Source: Chloroflexaceae bacterium (GTDB lineage: Bacteria; Chloroflexota; Chloroflexia; Chloroflexales; Chloroflexaceae). From it: 43,352 nucleotides of DNA. Where the stretch lies: NCBI GenBank assembly GCA_028282325.1, contig JANQID010000106.1:1-43352 (forward strand), given 5' to 3'. This document shows positions 3,998-13,701 of the stretch, in pieces; positions within the stretch are counted from its first letter, which is position 1, and every line of letters starts with the position of its first letter. Both the position numbers and the translations under genes were made by a program. Under the pieces are notes generated by a model, which saw only the letters and a program-made list of their open reading frames with translations, made no database searches and was not told the DNA's origin.

Positions 3998-4963
3998 TTA
4001 CGTCGTGGGGATGAGACTTACCGTACGACGACGACCATCGCGCAGGAAGGTAACGCGCCATGGGCGACGATGCTTCAGCGCCTGCACAGCTTCGCGCAAT
4101 GCAGCGACGGTTTCGATTTTGCGCTCCTCGATGTCGAGCAGGATGTCTCCGCCACGCAAGCTGGCGCGATCCGCTGCGCCTCCCGGTGCAACTTCCAACA
4201 GGAGCACGCCGTTGCTTTGTTGCAGGTTGTTCTGCCGCACGATGGATGCATCGATTTCTAGATCCAGGCCGCTGATGCCGAGCAAACCCTTCGCAATGCT
4301 CTGGCGATGTCGCTCGGTAATGCGCCCGATCACTTCATATGCGGTGCTGGCGGAAATAGCAAAGCCCAGCCCCTGAGCAAAAGGCAGAATCGCCGTAGTA
4401 ATGCCGACAATGCGCCCATGCACATCAACCAGCGGACCGCCGGAATTACCCGGATTGATCGACGTGTCGGTCTGGATGAGCTGATCCAGTTTCTGATTCG
4501 GTCCGATCGGCAGCGAACGATCCAGCGCGCTCACGACACCTGTCGTCACGGTGAAGTCCAGGCCATAGGGATTGCCGATCGCGATCACAAGCTGGCCGAC
4601 CCGCAGCGGAGCCGCGCTGAGTTCCGCCACAGGCAGACGGTTGGCGGCCACCCGCAGTACGGCAAGATCATAGGCGCTTTCGGCGCCGATCACGCCGGCG
4701 GGAAGTGCGCGCCCGTCGGGAAGCGTGATCGTAACGCGGGAGGCGTCGGCGACCACATGCGCATTCGTGAGAATATACCCGTCGCTGCTGTAGATCACGC
4801 CGGAACCAACCCCGCGCGGATGTTGATCGCCGCGCCAGGGCCAGACTTGCCGCCCGCCGCGCCCGGTTTCGACCTTCGCCACCGCCGGACCGGCGCGCTC
4901 CGCTGCGGTGGTTATTGCTTGCGAATATGCATCAAGGGCTTCCGCCTCTTTTCCCGTTGACAT
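3998..4963 (-). CDS. HtrA/DegP-type serine protease without signal peptide
   Basis: Trypsin-fold serine protease with a C-terminal PDZ domain, 321 residues. The catalytic triad is visible as His69 in TNAHVV, Asp99 in YDLAVL and Ser174 in GNSGGP. The PDZ domain covers about residues 225-315 (GVLLLEVAPGGAADRASLRGGDILLDI). Family members usually carry a signal peptide or membrane anchor. This one starts MSTGKEAEALDAY with no hydrophobic N-terminus, so it is predicted cytoplasmic unless the true start lies elsewhere. An AAGGAAGGAA site precedes the ATG, and a strong promoter (TTGACG-17-TATACT) lies about 60 nt upstream. It is monocistronic and reads away from the CHAT/sigma cluster. Family assignment is firm; substrate unknown. 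Confidence 0.93.
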   Translation of the reverse strand: MSTGKEAEALDAYSQAITTAAERAGPAVAKVETGRGGRQVWPWRGDQHPRGVGSGVIYSSDGYILTNAHVVADASRVTITLPDGRALPAGVIGAESAYDLAVLRVAANRLPVAELSAAPLRVGQLVIAIGNPYGLDFTVTTGVVSALDRSLPIGPNQKLDQLIQTDTSINPGNSGGPLVDVHGRIVGITTAILPFAQGLGFAISASTAYEVIGRITERHRQSIAKGLLGISGLDLEIDASIVRQNNLQQSNGVLLLEVAPGGAADRASLRGGDILLDIEERKIETVAALREAVQALKHRRPWRVTFLRDGRRRTVSLIPTT

Positions 4964-5209: not shown

Positions 5210-5377
5210 ATGACACAGCGAATGACACGATGGACGGCGGGTGCGTTGCTTGCGCTTATGCTGACCTTTGGCATGGCCGCAGGAGCCAGTCAGTTGCAAA
5301 GCGCTGCGGCTGAACAGCCCACGACTGCGCCGGTTCAGATGATCGCCGATCCGGGCGGCAGTTGCGGCAACGGCTAG
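5210..5377 (+). CDS. Small secreted peptide precursor (55 aa)
   Basis: A short gene supported by a near-perfect ribosome site (AGAGGAGG, about 8 nt before the ATG at 5210). The 55-residue product has a basic N-terminus (MTQRMTRWT), a hydrophobic core (AGALLALMLTFGMAAG) and a signal-peptidase-like end, followed by a short Ala/Gln/Pro-rich stretch and a C-terminus DPGGSCGNG with a single Cys. Secretion of a peptide of roughly 25-30 residues is predicted. No family is recognised. A Gly-rich Cys tail might mean modification, disulfide dimerisation or a signalling peptide, but none of these can be shown here. A stem-loop at 5395-5424 follows it, and the sigma-factor gene begins 264 bp downstream on the same strand. 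Confidence 0.7.
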   Translation: MTQRMTRWTAGALLALMLTFGMAAGASQLQSAAAEQPTTAPVQMIADPGGSCGNG

Positions 5378-5394
5378 AGAAGACGAATCACGAT

Positions 5395-5424
5395 AATGAC
5401 GGCGGGCTGGCGCCGCCCGTCGTT
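5395..5424 (+). terminator. Stem-loop between peptide and sigma genes
   Basis: AATGACGGCGG (5395-5405) pairs with 5413-5424 across a 7-nt loop, with one bulged base. It is GC-rich and stable but has no U-tract. It could end or attenuate the peptide transcript. Confidence 0.4.
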
Positions 5425-5576
5425 CATTCACCAACACCGGCACGTTATGTGTGATATTCGCCTTGTCTGTCCCGTTCATCATCTGCAATCCGGTCGCGTG
5501 TGCATCTGCCGCAACAGAGCAGCGACTCGGACAACGGACAAACTCTGGCAACCGCCACAGCCAATCGATTCGGCGA

Positions 5577-5606
5577 TTGACGCTTTCCCCTCGCCTGTGA
5601 TACCAT
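5577..5606 (+). promoter_or_regulatory. Candidate promoter of the sigma-factor gene
   Basis: TTGACG (5577-5582), an 18-bp spacer, and TACCAT (5601-5606). The predicted start near 5613 gives a leader of about 29 nt before the GTG at 5642. The -10 matches only 4 of 6 consensus bases. Confidence 0.45.
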
Positions 5607-5641
5607 CAGAGCAACACGACGAGGGCGGAAAGGACAGCAGC

Positions 5642-6433
5642 GTGAGCGATCCGGAGCGGAACGCGCTACGGACTGCCTGGCAACGACTGGCGCAGCGTTA
5701 CGATTGGCAGTTGGCTCAAGATGAAGCTGCGTTTCTGGAAAGCGCGGCGACCGAACTCCAATCTCTGGTCAGTGATGCATCCCTGTCTCGCAGATGCCAG
5801 ATTGCGGTCTGGCGCGCGTACAGCGCATTGTTGTACCGCGGCTTGTGGCATGGTCAAGAACGCGCGGCGCAGGAACTCTGGCTGGCGTTTGCCCGGCTTG
5901 CGCTAGGCAAAGGCGTTGCGCGGCCTAATGCTGAAGAGCTTGCCCAAGAGACTGTCACACGCGCGCTGGAAAAGTTGCCCGTCCTTCAGCAGCCGCAGAG
6001 TCTGCTGTCCTGGGCATTGACAATCTTCCGCACGGTGCGGCGCGAGAGTCAAGTGGTCGCCGAAAACGAAATCGCTCTGCCGCACGATCCCGATGACCGA
6101 GTATGGGAGATTGAAGATCCGGCGAATCTGGCGGCGGATGTTGAAGAACGTCTGGTGAGCCGGGAGTTGCAGGCGTTGCTGTGGGCAAAATTGCCCAACG
6201 ACCTGGAACGCCTGGTGTTGTTGCGCATAGTCGTTCTGGATGACAAACCTCGCGATGTTGCACGTGATCTGGGCTTGCCGCTGCACCGCGCGCGCATTGC
6301 CAAACACCGCGCGTTGGCCCGGTTGAAAGAAGATTCTGAAGTATTCGAGGCCCTCCGCGATCTTGTCGGCGATCCACGTTTGACCCCGACTGCTACGGAA
6401 GGAGAGGGCGATGGCCCGTGGACCGAACCCTGA
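5642..6433 (+). CDS. ECF-like sigma-70 family RNA polymerase sigma factor
   Basis: A 263-residue protein with two sigma modules. Region 2 spans about residues 55-137 (AEELAQETVTRALEKLP, then a LLSWALTIFRTVRRES helix). Region 4 spans about 174-230 (LPNDLERLVLLRIVVLDDKPRDVARDLGLPLHRARIAKHRALARLK), a helix-turn-helix for -35 recognition. There is a roughly 50-residue N-terminal extension and a short acidic tail. The GTG start at 5642 follows AAGGA by 7 nt; upstream in-frame sequence shows no domain. Its last 23 bp overlap the next gene, so the pair is translationally coupled, the usual arrangement for ECF sigma and anti-sigma. Region 4 is clear and region 2 is divergent. It likely controls genes of this cluster, which is an inference. 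Confidence 0.8.
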   Translation: MSDPERNALRTAWQRLAQRYDWQLAQDEAAFLESAATELQSLVSDASLSRRCQIAVWRAYSALLYRGLWHGQERAAQELWLAFARLALGKGVARPNAEELAQETVTRALEKLPVLQQPQSLLSWALTIFRTVRRESQVVAENEIALPHDPDDRVWEIEDPANLAADVEERLVSRELQALLWAKLPNDLERLVLLRIVVLDDKPRDVARDLGLPLHRARIAKHRALARLKEDSEVFEALRDLVGDPRLTPTATEGEGDGPWTEP

Positions 6434-7103
6434 GCGTGAGGCAGCGGAACGCCTCTTACACGCACTGAAGCCGTCGGGCGCGCTGAGTTGCGAGCAGGCG
6501 CGCATACTGATTCCTGCGCTTGTGGAAGCCGAATTCGCCGGCGAAGATGTGGACGCATCGCCGGTGTTTGCGCCTGTGCTGCGTGCGATCGATCACTGCC
6601 CCGATTGCGCCGAGCTTTATGCGCAACTCGCGGCGGATATGGAAGCGTTGCTGGGTGACGCCGAAACAGCGGCGGCGCTTGAACCAACGCCGTTGAAACC
6701 GCCGACATTTTTTACGCCGACGCGAGCGAGCGAGCATATTGTGGTACGCGTATTGCAGGGCGTGGCGCGCCAGTTCGATCTCTCCCTCGCAACCGCACGC
6801 CTGCTTCCCGCCGCGGGAACGCTCAGCGGCGGACGGCAGATCAATCTCTTCACCGACCACTTGTCCGAAGTATCCGGGGCGCCGTTGGTATCGGTGTCGC
6901 TGCAGGTTGAGAATGACGCTGCGGCGTTGCTTGTCGCGGTGCGTGAAGCGGAGGCGACGACACGCTGGGAAGTCCGGACTATGGTCGCCGATCAGATGCA
7001 TACCGCCACGACTGACGATCACGGGATCGCCCGGTTCGCACCGATCGCACTGGCGGCACTCGACGCGCTTGTGGTGCGCTGCGTCGAGCTACTCCCAGAG
7101 TAG
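6411..7103 (+). CDS. Candidate anti-sigma factor with a Cys/His site
   Basis: A 230-residue soluble protein whose start overlaps the sigma gene by 23 bp. The N-terminal 80 residues have a putative zinc site, Cys27 with His62-Cys63-x2-Cys66 (HCPDC). This resembles the zinc-binding anti-sigma fold (zf-HC2/ZAS), though the usual His-x3-Cys-x2-Cys spacing is not kept. A linker with Pro/Thr (90-105) leads to a C-terminal domain (about 108-230) with alternating hydrophobic strands (PLVSVSLQVENDAAALLVAVREAE) that suggest a beta-rich module. There is no membrane span. Gene position and the metal-site motif support an anti-sigma role. The linker could be a protease target of the neighbouring CHAT proteins, which is untested. 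Its 3' end overlaps the convergent CHAT gene by 15 bp. Confidence 0.6.
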   Translation: MARGPNPEREAAERLLHALKPSGALSCEQARILIPALVEAEFAGEDVDASPVFAPVLRAIDHCPDCAELYAQLAADMEALLGDAETAAALEPTPLKPPTFFTPTRASEHIVVRVLQGVARQFDLSLATARLLPAAGTLSGGRQINLFTDHLSEVSGAPLVSVSLQVENDAAALLVAVREAEATTRWEVRTMVADQMHTATTDDHGIARFAPIALAALDALVVRCVELLPE

Positions 7104-9032
7104 CGCCAGTGTGAGCAGCAACAGCGCCAGCGTGAATGCGCCGGGACCTGGGTCGAGTAAGAACGCCCAGGGTGTGTCCAGCAGAAAGACGACACCGTAC
7201 GGCGCGGCTGCTAGCGCCGCTGCGGCGACGAGCGCCAGGGTCAGCGTGCCAGGGCTAAACAGCTCCGGTTGCAGCGGGGCGATGGCGAGCGCGCTGCGCA
7301 TTTGCGCGCGAGCGGCGGCATAGCTGGCGAACAGGCCGCCGAGCAGCATCCCAGCAAAGAGCGTCAATGCCGCCATCGTCGACATAAACGCAAACGCGCC
7401 GATAAGCCAGATTGCCGCAAGCGCCGTAAACCCGACGAGACCGCTTAGCACGTACCCCAGATACGCTCCTATCCACTGGGCATAGCGCGCCGCACGACGC
7501 ACCCCCGCACTCAGGTCGGCGCGATTGCGTACCCCACGATATGCAGCCGCGATGATTGCCGGACCGATCAACCCCAACTCTGCCCAGAGCACCCACACGC
7601 GCAGCAACGTCTCGCGGTGCAGCGGCTCCGGGGTCGGCAGCAGCAGCCAGCGCACCATTCCCACAGCCAGCAGCACAAGCGCGATCGTCGCTATGCCGCC
7701 GCGCCCAGTGCGCTGCGCCGAGGCGTGGTATACACAGCGCTCGAACACGCTATCGGCCAACCGGCCGTACCAGGGTTCCGGCTCGGCAAAACCGCTGCCT
7801 TGATAGAGCACCGGCATGCTCCAATCGACCAGACCGCCGGCGGCGCGCATTGCAATGCGACCCGCTGCGACCGCTTGCTCCAGCGACCGACCTTGCGCAA
7901 ACGTATGGTACAGCGCCCGGATGAACGCCTCAGACGATGCCTGATCGACGGCGCCCTGCATCGCGATCACCGCCGGCGCGCATTGCCGAATAAGTTCGAG
8001 CGCAATGCTTTCGACTGCCAATCGTTCGCGGTCAGCGTCTGCGCCGTTGGGGCGGTTTTCCAGATTAGGAATAGCATCGCCAGCGTGACAGGCTTGCAGC
8101 ACAATTAGTTGCACATCGCCAGCCAGCGAGAAAATTGGTGCAAGATCGAACGCACTGACTCGCTGAATATAGCCGTCGCGATGAGTGAACAGCAAGCTGT
8201 TGCGCCCGCGATTGCCGATGTCCTGGCGTTCGCCATGGCAAAGGATGTGAACAATCTGTGGATTAGTCGCTTGCAATCGGCGCTGCAATTCGCCGAGGGT
8301 GTCGGCGTCGGCGTACCACCAGCACGGAATCGGCTGATCGGGAAGCACCGACGCGATGGAGGCGCGGGTCGCTCCAAGATCGATCGGTTGCCCGTCTGTC
8401 GGCGTTGCGGCGAAAGCTTGCAGCCGCAACGGACGCGCGAGGCGCGGCACGACGTTGCATCCAATCGATTGAACCTGGCGGATTAGCGTCACGTCGGCGT
8501 TGAGCAATACGAACCCCTCGTCGTCGTGCTCGGCCTGCGCGCCGCGCACGAGCGGCAGGACCATCAACTCCCACGGCACGCCGAGGAGGTATTTGGCATC
8601 GCGTGCGACTTCCAAGATCAAGCGCAGCGCGCGGCGACGCTGTCTGGAGCGCTGAATTGCCGCAATGATGCTCTGGCGCACCGTCTGTGGCAGGATCTCG
8701 GCGACGCGGCGACCCAGGTCAATGAGTGCGCGCAGATCGTAGCGATCAAGCGAAGGCGTGGGGAGACCACAGGCTTCCAATTCGCGCTGGAGTCGTAGGC
8801 GTTGCTCGTAGGCGCGGCGCAGTTCGCAAACCTGGCTAAATTGGAACGCCTCTCGCTGACGAAACGGTCCGCCGAGCATCCCCACGCCGGGCCGCTCAAG
8901 TGTGGCGTGAAACAACTCCTCGTCCTCGGCGACAGTCCGACTGATGATGACACGCACAACGTCATACGCAGGGCCCAACGGCGGAATCGATTCTCGGCTC
9001 CGATAGCGCGGCAGTAATGATGCGATAGTCAT
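7089..9032 (-). CDS. CHAT-domain protease with C-terminal membrane anchor
   Basis: A 647-residue protein. The CHAT (caspase-HetF-associated with TPRs) cysteine-protease domain occupies about residues 140-415, with predicted catalytic His266 in VHILCHGE and Cys315 in LQACHAGD. The N-terminal 130 residues are helical and basic. After residue 445 there are about six hydrophobic segments (446-464, 478-498, 521-545, 548-572, 595-617, 624-646), so the protease domain is probably held on the cytoplasmic face of the membrane. GGAG lies 5 nt before the ATG. It starts 9 bp after the membrane-protein gene at 9042-10460 ends, so the two are co-transcribed, and it converges on the candidate anti-sigma gene. 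CHAT assignment is firm; the substrate is unknown. Confidence 0.85.
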   Translation of the reverse strand: MTIASLLPRYRSRESIPPLGPAYDVVRVIISRTVAEDEELFHATLERPGVGMLGGPFRQREAFQFSQVCELRRAYEQRLRLQRELEACGLPTPSLDRYDLRALIDLGRRVAEILPQTVRQSIIAAIQRSRQRRRALRLILEVARDAKYLLGVPWELMVLPLVRGAQAEHDDEGFVLLNADVTLIRQVQSIGCNVVPRLARPLRLQAFAATPTDGQPIDLGATRASIASVLPDQPIPCWWYADADTLGELQRRLQATNPQIVHILCHGERQDIGNRGRNSLLFTHRDGYIQRVSAFDLAPIFSLAGDVQLIVLQACHAGDAIPNLENRPNGADADRERLAVESIALELIRQCAPAVIAMQGAVDQASSEAFIRALYHTFAQGRSLEQAVAAGRIAMRAAGGLVDWSMPVLYQGSGFAEPEPWYGRLADSVFERCVYHASAQRTGRGGIATIALVLLAVGMVRWLLLPTPEPLHRETLLRVWVLWAELGLIGPAIIAAAYRGVRNRADLSAGVRRAARYAQWIGAYLGYVLSGLVGFTALAAIWLIGAFAFMSTMAALTLFAGMLLGGLFASYAAARAQMRSALAIAPLQPELFSPGTLTLALVAAAALAAAPYGVVFLLDTPWAFLLDPGPGAFTLALLLLTLALLWE

Positions 9033-9041
9033 ATAACTCCA

Positions 9042-10460
9042 TTATGCCATCAAAAACTGACGTTGCTTGTCATCAAGGCGTCGGCGTTCAACAGCAAGCA
9101 AAAAATGTATATGCTCGTATATCGTCGCCAGCAGATCGGATGGCCAGCCTGTCAACCCGCACGATGCAGATGGAAACGCCGTGATGGCCGCACCGCGTTC
9201 AAGCGCGTCGTTGGTTGCCAGCGAACGCAATTGGAGCAGCGCACGGCTAATCGGATCGGCGACATCGGCGCAATGCGGCGCCGCGAGGAGGCGCTCCCTC
9301 GCCGCGGACCAGCGCGTTGATTGTAGCACTGCGAGACTGAGATCCAGCAATATCGCCAGCGATGTTGCACTGGGCCAGTCCTGGCAGGCGACCAGCAAAA
9401 CACGCCGGCGTTTAATCTCCGTCGGCCATGCCTCAGGTGATTCGACGTGCGCCAGTGCAGCATACGCAGCAACCAGCGGATGGGGTTGGGCTGAACGCTC
9501 GACGATGCCCCGCAGCAATGCGGCGCCATCGGAGCGGGTGCTGAGCCGCAAGAGTAAAGGATGCGCCATCCGGCGATCCTGCCCGGCGGCCAGAATGGCC
9601 CGCTCCGCAGCTCGATGCTGCCCAGGATGGCGCGCAACGTCCAGCAACCAGTCGCATCCCGCGTCGCTATCAACGGCGCACGCTCGCACGAGCAAGCCGC
9701 GCAATCCCGGCAGCGGCGGCAAACTCAGATCGTCGTAGGAAACGGGGTGCCATTGGCGGATCGAGCGCACGCATACGCCTGTTCGTACGGCGACTACCAA
9801 CGTTACACTGAGCAACGCCGCCCAGAGATAGCTCAGCGGACGTAACACGCCGACGGCAAACCCGATGAACGCGGGGGAGAGCGCCACGCAAGCCGGATGC
9901 AGCGTGTATGATTGCCAGAGCGCGCCGCCGATCACAAGTGCGCCGCCTGTGATGAGCCAACGCGCGGCGTTGGCCTCGTCGCGACATTTATGGCGTGCCA
10001 GGATAACCGTGACAACACCACCGACCAATACGCCAAGCATACATCCGATGGATATGTGAGGGGCGTGCAACAGCGGCGGCTGCGCGCGTGCGTCGTTTAA
10101 CACCAGCGCCAGAACCAGCGTCAACGGCGGCGTCATCGCGAGTAGGTTGCGCAGCATCCAGAACGCACCGTTGCGCAGCGGCCCCAGGCGTCGATCAGCG
10201 CTGATCATCGTGCAAATTCCGGCAATTGCGATGGGGATCGTGATCGCGAAGCACAGGCTGGCGATCATTTCCGTCGGACGTAGGCTCAGCAACGACCCGA
10301 TGCCCAGGACAAGCAATCCCAATGCCCCAACGAGCGTAGTCAGCGCCGCCAGCGCTGTCCAGACGAGGTTGCGTCGCCCGCCCGCCAGATAGTCGGCAAA
10401 ACGTCGAGGCCGGAGCAGCGTGGCGGCTATGATTTTGAACAGATGCGGCGATTGCGACAC
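9042..10460 (-). CDS. Membrane protein with helical C-terminal domain, unknown function
   Basis: A product of about 472 residues. The N-terminal half has around seven hydrophobic segments (for example TALAALTTLVGALGLLVLGI and MLGVLVGGVVTVILA). The C-terminal half (from about residue 245) is soluble and built of short Ala/Leu-rich helices that could form an alpha-alpha repeat fold. No known domain is recognised. The start is uncertain: the GTG at 10460 (MSQSPHLFK) has AAGG 6 nt upstream, whereas the frame extends to a TTG at 10499 that overlaps a likely -10 site. It lies 9 bp upstream of the CHAT-TM gene and is probably its partner, such as a sensor or scaffold. It is divergent from the TPR-CHAT gene. 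Confidence 0.7.
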   Translation of the reverse strand: MSQSPHLFKIIAATLLRPRRFADYLAGGRRNLVWTALAALTTLVGALGLLVLGIGSLLSLRPTEMIASLCFAITIPIAIAGICTMISADRRLGPLRNGAFWMLRNLLAMTPPLTLVLALVLNDARAQPPLLHAPHISIGCMLGVLVGGVVTVILARHKCRDEANAARWLITGGALVIGGALWQSYTLHPACVALSPAFIGFAVGVLRPLSYLWAALLSVTLVVAVRTGVCVRSIRQWHPVSYDDLSLPPLPGLRGLLVRACAVDSDAGCDWLLDVARHPGQHRAAERAILAAGQDRRMAHPLLLRLSTRSDGAALLRGIVERSAQPHPLVAAYAALAHVESPEAWPTEIKRRRVLLVACQDWPSATSLAILLDLSLAVLQSTRWSAARERLLAAPHCADVADPISRALLQLRSLATNDALERGAAITAFPSASCGLTGWPSDLLATIYEHIHFLLAVERRRLDDKQRQFLMA

Positions 10461-10498
10461 GATCGACCTTGAACAACGGCAGAGAATCTCTCTATCCA

Positions 10499-10529
10499 AC
10501 TATACTATACTATTCGCGCCGCTACGCAA
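10499..10529 (-). promoter_or_regulatory. Weak promoter candidate for the membrane-protein/CHAT pair
   Basis: Minus-strand TTGCGT (10524-10529) and TATAGT (10499-10504) are 19 bp apart, within overlapping TATAGT repeats. If used, transcription would begin near 10492, which favours the GTG at 10460 as the start codon. Confidence 0.35.
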
Positions 10530-10665
10530 GATGTGACGCAATGTTTGGCACAAAACTCGGGTATTATGAGACGATGGCGCCTGCTATCGGATCGACTCAT
10601 TCCAGGATGCAATGAGCGGCTATGTTCTACGCAAATAGCTAATCTCCGTTGAGGAGGCTTGACCC

Positions 10666-13581
10666 GTGACAGCGCACATACATGACAGGGACGTCATAGC
10701 CCGATTGCTCGCATTGGCCGAAATTCATCCCCGTCGCGCGGTTCGCCTGACGCGTCGTTTGCTCCAGACTATCCCAACCGGCAATGTATTTGTTCATGCT
10801 CGCGTCAGTTATGTTCTCGGCTGGTCGCTGCTGCTCTGGGAGCGTTTTGATCAGGCGCGCCCCTTTCTCGATGCGGCGCAACACATATTCAATCGCCTGC
10901 AACGACCGTACGATGCACTGCGTTGCGAACACGGCCTTTTGCGCATCAACGCCGCCCAACTACGTCAGCCCGATCTGGAATCGGCCTTTACCGATCTAAC
11001 CCTTCGTTTTTCACAGATCGGCGCGGCGCGCGAGTCGCTGACCGTGCAGCTTGATCACGTCCAACTGGCGACCGCCCAAGGGCATTGGCAAGATGCCCAA
11101 AATATCTTGAGCGATATCGAACCGGCTGCTGCCGCAGCGGGCAATCTCACGTGGGCGCTATGGCTATGGCGTCGTGGTGTTGTCGCCATTTCCTCAAATG
11201 ATTTTGCCTACGCGGCGATGTTTTTGGAGAAGGCGGAGAATCAATTTGCCAAGCTGCATCAACGCTTGTACGTTGCTCGTTGTTGGGCCGACCAGGGCGT
11301 TCTGGCAACCCGACTGGAAAAACTCGACTATGCGCTTGAGTGCTACCAGCGTGCTGAACATGTATTTCGCCGTCTCGATTTACCCTTGCGTATGGCATTC
11401 TCAACACGCAATACCGGCCTTGTCTTTATGATGCGCGGCGAGTACGATCAGGCCCTCACGGCGACGCTCACAGCCCTCGAATATTTCACTGCTCTGGGTC
11501 GCGCCAGCGATGTTGGCGGCGCACAGCTCAATCTCGGAAACATCCATTTTTATACCGGGCGAATGGAAGCCGCGCTGGCGAATTATGTCCGTGCGGAAGC
11601 GCTGTGTGAAAGAACCGGGATGCTCGCCGAACGACTGCTCGCCCGACGCAATCGCGCGATGGTCTATCGCGCGCACGGCCGTCTCGAAGAGGCTCGTACA
11701 TTGCTGGACGATGTTGAACAACAGGCATGGGAGCTTAGATACCTCTCGGAAGTCGCCGAAGTGCGCAGTGTGAAGGCGGCGCTGCACGTTGACGAAGGCC
11801 AGAATGCTGATGCGATGCGACTGTATGCAGAAGCAAGTACTTTATTCGATCAGATCGCCAATGCGCCCGCGGCAGCCGAATGCCGAATGGAGCAGGGCTG
11901 GCTGGCATTGCGAAGCGATGCATTCGATCAGGCGCGTATGTTCTTCCAATCCGCCGAAGCAGATCTGCAACGACATCCGCATCATCATTGGCGCATCAGT
12001 TATGGGTTGGGAAAATGCGCTGAAGCCAGCCAGGACGTTCAAACTGCGCTGCATTTCTATGAACAAGCGAGCGCAATCATCGCCGGCTTACGTCTGCGCC
12101 TGGCAAGCGAAGAGGCTTCAAGCGCACTCTACAATCAGGCTGCACAGTTCTATACCGATGCCATTCACCTTGCCTCAGCATCCAACGCGCTGGAGAAACT
12201 ACTGGTTATCAGCGAGTCGCAACGTGGATTGACATTGCAGCGCCTGATGGCAATCGAACGCTACCGCCTTCCAGAATCCTGCCGAATAGAGCATAACGAA
12301 CTGCGGATCCGGATCGAAGCGGCGCTTGAACCTGAACAACCGACCGCCGCGCAGACCGCCGCCCTCGACGAACTGCTGGCTACATACAATGATCTGTTAC
12401 TGCGCGCCCGCCATCACGAAGGCATGCCGCCAGTAGAGCATTCGCGGCGTCTGGATCTTGCCAAGCTCCGTACTCAGCTCAACACAGCATTCCCCGACGG
12501 ATGGACCGCGCTTGTCTATGTGTTGCTCGATGGAGAACTGCTGATCATCACATACACCGACACAACCCTGGAACTTGATCGTACGCCAGTCGATGCACGA
12601 CTGCGCCAGTGCCTTGATCGCGCCTGTTTGCCGAGACATCGCCGATTTACGTATCTCAATCTACGCTATATGAGTGGACAGGAGCCGGCTCCCTGGAAAA
12701 CGTTGACCGAGCTATCCAAAAGGCTGATCCCTGAGCAGGTGCATAGCCGCTTGCACGACAACCATCGCTTGCTGATCGCACCAAGCGGTTTGCTCCATGC
12801 ATTGCCCTGGTCGGCGCTGCGCATAGATGACGCCTGGCTCTGTCAACGTGCAGTTGTGCAACTCGTGCCCGGCTTACTGCTCTGGTCGCACCTGGCGACA
12901 TCGCCGACGACGCATGAACACAACGCGCTCTTGCTAGGATGCAGCCAGTTTGGCGGTCGTGCGGCAGATTTGCCGAATGCTTTGCCATCCCTCGACCTTG
13001 TTCAACGTTACTGGCACGGCCCGACAATGCGCCTGGAAGACGCCGCAGCAACACGCAAAGCGCTGCTGACCGGGGCGACACAAGGCGTATGGCAGCGCTA
13101 TCGATTGCTCCATTTTGCCACGCATGCGCAATTTATCCCGAATCGGGGTATGCTTGCGCATATGAAGCTCGCTGATCGCGATCTGTTCATCGATGACATT
13201 TTGTGGCTAGGGCTGCGTGGCGCGCTGGTCGTTCTCGCCGCATGCGACGGCGCCGCTCATGAGGTATTGTCCGGCGAGGAAGTATTGAGTTTGAGCCGGG
13301 CTTTTCTGGCTGCCGGAGCCCGTGATGTGGTCGCCAGCCTCTGGAAGATGTACGATCATGCGATTCTGGAAATCCTGGAACCCTTCTATGCAGTGCTGGC
13401 GGCGGGCGAGGATGCGCCAACAGCGCTAGCTCACGCGCAGCGAATGATGATTACGCGCTACGAAAATGGCGACACCGCCGGCCAACCAATTTACTCACCG
13501 CTGGTGTGGGCCAGCCTGAGCGCGCTCGGCGCCGGAGCGACTTCGGTATCCGCACGAAACGAACAGGCTGAAGCGAAATAA
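10666..13581 (+). CDS. TPR-repeat CHAT-domain protease
   Basis: A 971-residue protein. Residues about 20-480 are tandem TPR-type helical repeats (for example ALECYQRAEHVFRRLDLPL, AQLNLGNIHFYTGRMEAALA), a protein-binding superhelix. A linker of about 150 residues follows, then the CHAT domain from about 640 to 960. The predicted catalytic His820 lies in HFATHA and Cys860 in LAACDGA, followed by the family's SLSRAFLAAGARDVVASLW stretch. The GTG start at 10666 is preceded by GAGGAGG with an 8-nt spacer. There is no membrane span. The architecture is that of the TPR-CHAT (separase/caspase-like) proteases, including the protease partner in type III-E CRISPR, but no CRISPR gene is nearby. It is divergent from the membrane CHAT operon and a strong hairpin follows it. 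Confidence 0.92.
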   Translation: MTAHIHDRDVIARLLALAEIHPRRAVRLTRRLLQTIPTGNVFVHARVSYVLGWSLLLWERFDQARPFLDAAQHIFNRLQRPYDALRCEHGLLRINAAQLRQPDLESAFTDLTLRFSQIGAARESLTVQLDHVQLATAQGHWQDAQNILSDIEPAAAAAGNLTWALWLWRRGVVAISSNDFAYAAMFLEKAENQFAKLHQRLYVARCWADQGVLATRLEKLDYALECYQRAEHVFRRLDLPLRMAFSTRNTGLVFMMRGEYDQALTATLTALEYFTALGRASDVGGAQLNLGNIHFYTGRMEAALANYVRAEALCERTGMLAERLLARRNRAMVYRAHGRLEEARTLLDDVEQQAWELRYLSEVAEVRSVKAALHVDEGQNADAMRLYAEASTLFDQIANAPAAAECRMEQGWLALRSDAFDQARMFFQSAEADLQRHPHHHWRISYGLGKCAEASQDVQTALHFYEQASAIIAGLRLRLASEEASSALYNQAAQFYTDAIHLASASNALEKLLVISESQRGLTLQRLMAIERYRLPESCRIEHNELRIRIEAALEPEQPTAAQTAALDELLATYNDLLLRARHHEGMPPVEHSRRLDLAKLRTQLNTAFPDGWTALVYVLLDGELLIITYTDTTLELDRTPVDARLRQCLDRACLPRHRRFTYLNLRYMSGQEPAPWKTLTELSKRLIPEQVHSRLHDNHRLLIAPSGLLHALPWSALRIDDAWLCQRAVVQLVPGLLLWSHLATSPTTHEHNALLLGCSQFGGRAADLPNALPSLDLVQRYWHGPTMRLEDAAATRKALLTGATQGVWQRYRLLHFATHAQFIPNRGMLAHMKLADRDLFIDDILWLGLRGALVVLAACDGAAHEVLSGEEVLSLSRAFLAAGARDVVASLWKMYDHAILEILEPFYAVLAAGEDAPTALAHAQRMMITRYENGDTAGQPIYSPLVWASLSALGAGATSVSARNEQAEAK

Positions 13582-13624: not shown

Positions 13625-13701
13625 TGGTGGGCGATAGTGGACTCGAACCACTGACCTCGTCGGTGTGAACGACGCGCTCTAACCAACTGAGCTAATCGCC
13701 C
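13625..13701 (-). tRNA. tRNA-Val (anticodon CAC)
   Basis: The minus strand folds as a cloverleaf. The acceptor is GGGCGAT/ATCGCCC, the D arm is GCTCAGTTGGTTAGAGC, the anticodon stem is CGTCG/CGACG with loop TTCACAC (anticodon CAC, Val), and the T arm contains GGTTCGAGTCC. The discriminator A and the 3' CCA are encoded (13625-13628). Confidence 0.96.

Follow-up and report, generated by a model that had tools for sequence, protein, structure and literature searches.

A recurrent sigma factor, anti-sigma factor and CHAT protease module of Chloroflexales suggests a CRISPR-independent transcription switch

Introduction

In the Craspase of type III-E CRISPR, Csx29 cuts the sigma inhibitor Csx30 and so lifts inhibition of the sigma factor CASP-sigma (PMC10028731), and genes for the substrates of CHAT proteases commonly neighbour that of the protease (PMC9729208). 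Here we describe a cluster of genes for an extracytoplasmic function (ECF)-like sigma factor, a probable anti-sigma factor (the 6411 protein), two CHAT proteases, a membrane protein and a small secreted peptide, found in a stretch of 43,352 nucleotides (the window) that is an entire contig (JANQID010000106.1) within the 4.6-Mb genome of a Chloroflexaceae bacterium. This module resembles Craspase in that a TPR-CHAT protease, an ECF-type sigma factor and a sigma inhibitor are co-encoded (PMC10028731; PMC9729208), with cleavage of the inhibitor being proposed here, but it contains no gRAMP, no CRISPR RNA array and no Csx31. In addition, its inhibitor is a 230-residue protein with parts predicted to be zinc anti-sigma (ZAS)-derived and MATH-like, whereas Csx30 has 565 residues, and the module adds a membrane CHAT protease (mCHAT) with its partner as well as the secreted peptide; the only homology detected between the two systems is that of CHAT.

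Other described systems share parts of this arrangement. CalpL/CalpT/CalpS form a comparable cascade from protease to anti-sigma to ECF sigma factor, but the protease there is of the Lon type with a SAVED domain, is switched on by cyclic tetra-adenylate (cA4) and is linked to CRISPR (PMC11417357). ECF54, as outlined in a source that cites Casas-Pastor 2021 (PMC8999054), comprises ECF sigma factors with CHAT neighbours (also carboxypeptidase and subtilase) for which proteolytic regulation is proposed; our module shares the CHAT neighbour, but ECF54, whose model member is actinobacterial, is described in that text without an anti-sigma factor, whereas here one is adjacent or fused to the sigma factor, a comparison that is one of descriptions only. 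The EACC2-caspase (TRADD-N) loci group genes for a caspase-fold protease, an ECF sigma factor and TPR proteins in bacteria with a multicellular habit, but the caspase is fused to EACC2 and no anti-sigma factor is named, while the window has CHAT proteases and a separate anti-sigma factor (PMC8195603). The zinc anti-sigma factors RsrA and ChrR share the ZAS motif with most relatives of the 6411 protein, and ChrR also has a C-terminal beta sensor domain; that domain is cupin-like (PMC8999054), whereas the one predicted here is MATH/TRAF-C-like, and the zinc ligands are decaying in the window's clade.

A CHAT protease beside an ECF sigma factor is already known from ECF54 and type III-E CRISPR, and the surprising parts of the module are its peptide and its predicted MATH-like anti-sigma factor. 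The literature found, whose coverage is incomplete, described neither a sigma/anti-sigma/CHAT module in Chloroflexota nor such a peptide. The module may work like Craspase or CalpL/CalpT/CalpS, by an analogy that implies membership of neither.

Results

Linkage of anti-sigma and CHAT genes across genomes

The genes for the sigma factor, anti-sigma factor, mCHAT with its partner, and TPR-CHAT form a conserved cluster that recurs in Chloroflexales genomes. Blind to CHAT, an anti-sigma profile was run against 82 genomes of the order and found 57 relatives; for 36 of them a CHAT gene lies no more than 3.5 kb away, the distance by which linkage was defined. Contig ends adjoin 9 of the 21 relatives without CHAT, so that linkage is 36/48 where the flank suffices, and it is 23/29 among the best anti-sigma matches. 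With 121 CHATs in ~76 Mb, linkage by chance is expected for ~1.7% of relatives, and the resulting binomial P of ~3e-49 gives an order of strength only, as related genomes are not independent. A reading of the window made from its sequence alone (the sequence-only reading) had predicted this co-occurrence, and the counts bear it out.

The linked genes occur in four layouts (locus numbers are our own). The sigma and anti-sigma genes are convergent to mCHAT in the window, and this order is retained in L055, L058, L059, L063 and L064. Co-directional operons in the order sigma, anti-sigma, TPR-CHAT, with gaps of 0-54 bp, are found in L058, L063, L113, L121 and L124; a third clade is convergent to CHAT (L065, L109, L120, L157, L159, L161 and L186); and in L127, L209, L211, L212, L214 and L215 a sigma-anti-sigma fusion has TPR-CHAT directly downstream. 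These varied layouts argue against one frozen locus. In L060, L061 and L062, two sigma/anti-sigma pairs flank one TPR-CHAT gene. Four plasmid CHAT neighbourhoods from phyla other than Chloroflexota had no sigma or anti-sigma factor annotated.

The genome of the window also contains a second pair of sigma factor and anti-sigma sandwich protein (L183:7057-9030; G000:C118), which has no CHAT neighbour; pairs resembling it in L170, L172, L176 and L184 form a separate subgroup. Third-clade loci are adjoined by a family of 628-661 residues of unknown kind (L062:2567-4453, L065:11900-13885, L109:3848-5734 and L120:3552-5519).

The 6411 protein as a probable anti-sigma factor

Searched by itself, the 6411 protein matches nothing in Pfam or NCBIfam. 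Its relatives, however, carry the ZAS motif C...HxxxCxxC in an alignment (51/60 have the His and 51-52/60 the Cys), and their NCBIfam matches are confined to three anti-sigma models, RsrA (0.0036), a generic one (0.0066) and RseA (0.0078). Their gene order points the same way, since 52 of 62 full-length relatives lie directly 3' of a sigma gene on the same strand, and the profile also picks up proteins of ~100 residues, of which the five retrieved (91-97 residues) each follow immediately on a sigma gene. In the window protein C27, C63 and C66 are intact and the position of the zinc-ligand His (59) is occupied by Ala, while from the closest orthologues (L053 and L054) the Cys are gone as well, which makes zinc or redox sensing unlikely in the window's clade. 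On its sequence, then, the protein appears to be ZAS-derived and not a canonical ZAS member, as its zinc site is incomplete. The earlier label of candidate Cys/His anti-sigma factor agrees with the motif in the relatives as regards the probable anti-sigma identity, and calls for amendment as regards the Cys/His site.

An AlphaFold2 model built on a 60-sequence alignment (pLDDT 84) has four helices, a disordered linker (90-102) and a beta sandwich, which places a helical ZAS-derived domain at residues 7-89, a disordered Pro/Phe linker at ~90-104 (window 6678-6722) and the C-terminal sandwich at 105-228. When the predicted sandwich was compared with PDB structures, 50/50 of the matches listed were MATH/TRAF-C domains at 4-10% identity, including SPOP (Z 9.5) and TRAF6 (Z 7.9), with root-mean-square deviations of 2.5-2.8 over 106-110 residues and a best Foldseek E of 7.9e-4; no Pfam sequence match to the sandwich was found. 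The C-terminal domain is therefore predicted to be MATH/TRAF-C-like, a likeness of fold and not proven kinship. The linker motif PPTFF recurs, with P.PDLSFL in other clades, and may serve as a place of docking or cleavage. A PDB search with the anti-sigma profile returned nothing relevant and no Csx30 chain.

Fusions and exchange of domains

The contact between sigma and anti-sigma factor is supported by natural fusions. In L127:10318-11781 (minus strand), sigma factor, helical domain and sandwich are joined in a single 488-residue protein whose end is overlapped by a CHAT gene, and at least eight further sigma/anti-sigma fusions occur in other genera. All 15 of 15 loci retrieved with one fusion (P0007) hold a CHAT gene, usually directly downstream, the query protein itself having been found beside CHAT; the fusion protein had no match among plasmids. 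A sigma factor fused to its inhibitor would be hard to free save by cutting or a conformational switch, which makes cleavage a natural route of release. The fusions of L127, L209, L211, L212, L214 and L215 are also ideal single-chain candidate substrates for CHAT cleavage.

A different exchange is seen in L066:373-2109, which encodes a 578-residue protein that keeps the C-terminal anti-sigma-type sandwich, has its N-terminus replaced by a region that matches TRADD-N weakly (5.6e-4), and is convergent to mCHAT; a neighbouring sigma factor was not detected on that short contig. This arrangement suggests that the sandwich is the part tied to the protease, the N-terminal part being exchangeable.

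Sigma factor and CHAT proteases

Alone, the window sigma factor matches TIGR02937 at E 5.7e-5, which is below the model's cut-off, and Sigma70_r2 at 8e-4, while TIGR02937 is matched by 11/11 of its homologues (best E 4.5e-15) and the family profile aligns with structures of SigL and RpoE (E 7e-7 to 3e-6). By its sequence it can be taken as an ECF-type sigma factor with regions 2 and 4 only, certain as a family and weak to single models. A profile from five close sigma factors found four loci, all of them already in the scan of the class.

Both window CHAT domains (PF12770; E 1e-16 and 1.8e-39) are above the Pfam cut-off. The mCHAT dyad H266/C315 is invariant in 8/8 membrane-CHAT homologues and the TPR-CHAT dyad H820/C860 in 30/30 untruncated linked homologues, so judging from sequence both proteases look catalytic. 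The protease domain of mCHAT is presumed to be cytosolic. Its partner, with ~6 predicted transmembrane segments and no known domain, is co-directional with mCHAT in other loci. It is a speculative possibility that mCHAT and this partner serve envelope signals and TPR-CHAT cytosolic or peptide signals.

A secreted peptide family

The 55-residue peptide is a member of what appears to be an undescribed family, for which NCBIfam gave no convincing match, with a basic start, a hydrophobic stretch, a short spacer and a tail of the form ADPGG..G or ACxPxxCGGGG. A single-sequence search with the peptide returned mostly noise; a position-aware scan of small frames around modules revealed relatives of the same layout, and in at least 13 loci a member adjoins a TPR-CHAT or sigma gene. 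One filter left 8 candidates in 1.04 Mb, and 7 of these are no further than 250 bp from a module gene, in a zone that makes up 4.2% of the sequence; the associated P of ~2e-9 is optimistic, since known members had guided the design of the filter. A profile search of the 82 genomes added four members, L242, L243, L244 and L245, of which those of L243 and L245 adjoin CHAT genes (a CHAT remnant in L245) and that of L242 lies beside unrelated genes. Genes of the NB-ARC-TPR (NLR-like) kind lie near two of these (L244:7044-7184 and 8359-11103; L245:7171-7314 and 7487-9793), suggesting that TPR domains may be what such loci have in common. Both the window and L053 (Candidatus Chloroploca mongolica) have the peptide gene ~265 bp upstream of the sigma gene; elsewhere it is mostly just 3' of the TPR-CHAT gene. 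In the precursor L060:6146-6418 the core LDLACGNPIVCGGGGG is present twice, as in multi-copy signal precursors.

Receptors with TPR domains, such as Rap, NprR and PlcR, read peptides. We tentatively raise the idea, to which we give a rather low probability, that the peptide is a signal that would be exported, processed and read by the TPR domain of TPR-CHAT or the MATH-like domain of the anti-sigma factor, triggering CHAT cleavage and sigma release; the hints are the usual position of its gene next to TPR-CHAT, the two members near NB-ARC-TPR genes and the doubled core.

Gene layout of the window

A reading-frame check found all named genes open at the coordinates in Table 1. The sigma gene overlaps the anti-sigma gene by 23 bp; the latter is convergent with the mCHAT gene, and the 3' ends of these two share 15 bp. 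A gene for an HtrA/DegS-like trypsin-PDZ protease (3998-4963, minus strand) lies ~250 bp ahead of the peptide gene, and tRNA-Val (CAC; 13625-13701, minus strand) adjoins the 3' side of TPR-CHAT, where the peptide gene is found in other genomes.

Table 1. Genes of the module, with positions in the window
Feature	Positions	Strand	Characteristics or basis
55-residue secreted peptide	5210..5377	+	ribosome-binding site GAGGAGG 5' of gene; signal peptide, short spacer, tail ADPGGSCGNG
ECF-like sigma factor	5642..6433	+	regions 2 and 4; N-terminal extension of ~75 residues
Soluble anti-sigma factor, probable (6411 protein)	6411..7103	+	motif alignment, AlphaFold2 model, structural matches of sandwich
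Membrane CHAT protease (mCHAT)	7089..9032	-	CHAT (H266, C315), then ~6 transmembrane segments
Membrane partner of mCHAT	9042..10499	-	~6 transmembrane segments, then soluble C-terminal half; start codon uncertain
TPR-CHAT protease	10666..13581	+	CHAT domain, H820, C860

Discussion

We favor, with moderate confidence, the view that this module is a CRISPR-independent, protease-gated transcription switch in which CHAT cuts the anti-sigma factor and frees the sigma factor. From linkage, catalytic dyads, domain make-up and fusions, all computed directly, we infer inhibition, cleavage, its site and its trigger as follows. The 6411 protein would keep the ECF-like sigma factor inactive through its ZAS-derived N-terminal domain, as the motif, gene order and natural fusions suggest, and its MATH/TRAF-C-like sandwich would be the part recognized by the CHAT protease. 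A signal would activate TPR-CHAT, or mCHAT with its six-segment partner; the activated protease would cut the anti-sigma factor, probably in the flexible Pro/Phe linker (residues 90-104); and the freed sigma factor would transcribe a regulon that perhaps includes the module itself. Cleavage is suggested by anti-sigma/CHAT linkage far above chance, the four layouts, the fusions and the invariant dyads, and also by the sandwich kept convergent to mCHAT in L066, the precedent of Csx29 and Csx30, and the habit of CHAT substrates to be encoded nearby.

Several observations weigh against this proposal. About 12 mostly more distant pairs with adequate flank have no CHAT gene within 3.5 kb (for example, L164, L170, L176, L181, L183 and L184), which indicates that the pair can function without CHAT; seven other CHATs of the window's genome are without sigma/anti-sigma neighbours, and the two of the window are outside any operon shared with the sigma gene. 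No promoter motif common to the regions upstream of the peptide, sigma, partner and TPR-CHAT genes was found (shared stretches of at most 8 bases), and a fold search with the helical domain, modelled by itself as four helices, gave no anti-sigma match, a result that says nothing against its identity. The sequence-only reading had held that pairs occurring widely without CHAT neighbours would count against it; such pairs do exist, mostly among the more distant ones but with one (L183) in the same genome, and the objection applies in part.

These CHAT-free pairs also favor an explanation that we regard as possible, if on the improbable side, in which the sigma/anti-sigma pair switches on the CHAT (and peptide) genes, the CHATs cut something different, for instance a secreted or cell-death substrate, and the anti-sigma factor is released otherwise. 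ECF sigma factors often autoregulate their own neighbourhood. In addition, a bacterial TPR-CHAT protease cleaves gasdermin, according to work cited in PMC9729208. Regulation of the CHAT genes alone, however, fits less well with a link kept over several CHAT architectures and four gene orders, including convergent ones and fusions, or with the retention of the anti-sigma C-terminal domain next to mCHAT in L066, where no sigma neighbour was detected on the short contig. It is quite unlikely that the anti-sigma factor is a zinc or redox sensor like RsrA with the CHAT genes as mere neighbours: most relatives have the ZAS motif and RsrA is the top NCBIfam match, but the window protein lacks the His, L053 and L054 also lack the Cys, and the CHAT linkage is far beyond chance.

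The least probable origin, which we hold to be very improbable, is a degenerate or ancestral type III-E CRISPR locus. TPR-CHAT, anti-sigma and sigma factor do stand together as in Craspase, and type III RAMP genes occur separately in the genome; against this, a scan of the whole contig found no CRISPR-like array, the genome has no RAMP frame of the size of a gRAMP/Cas7-11 effector (the largest has 432 residues, and these lie on other contigs), the Csx29 model meets the window TPR-CHAT in the shared CHAT domain only, at 30 bits versus a cut-off of 300, and no Csx30 match was obtained. The sequence-only reading had proposed a CRISPR-free relative of Craspase; the freedom from CRISPR agrees with these results, and descent from Craspase is not supported by them. 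Several of its other points are supported: an ECF-like sigma gene, confirmed by its homologues and structure matches; the 6411 protein as the partner of that sigma factor, being directly downstream and elsewhere fused to it; two CHAT proteases, with domains above cut-off and invariant dyads; and the peptide as part of the set, given its relatives beside sigma or TPR-CHAT genes in other genomes. Overall, then, the reading is partly supported: its gene set and linkage were upheld, while CHAT cleavage of the anti-sigma factor and its trigger are putative.

The recurrence in Chloroflexota of a caspase-like protease with a sigma factor and the probable inhibitor of the latter, often joined by a very small secreted peptide, suggests a CRISPR-independent switch. 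If the proposed protease-gated switch is correct, control of a sigma factor by TPR-CHAT via an anti-sigma factor would be a recurrent design of Chloroflexota and no peculiarity of CRISPR, and type III-E CRISPR may have taken parts from such modules, a direction that is conjectural. This analysis puts forward a candidate substrate of two caspase-like protease groups whose targets have so far been unknown, and the model points to a bacterial anti-sigma factor that bears a MATH/TRAF-like domain. It also brings to light a tiny secreted peptide family tied to CHAT proteases, which, if it acts as a signal, would make the module a peptide-signalling circuit with a caspase-like protease at its centre.

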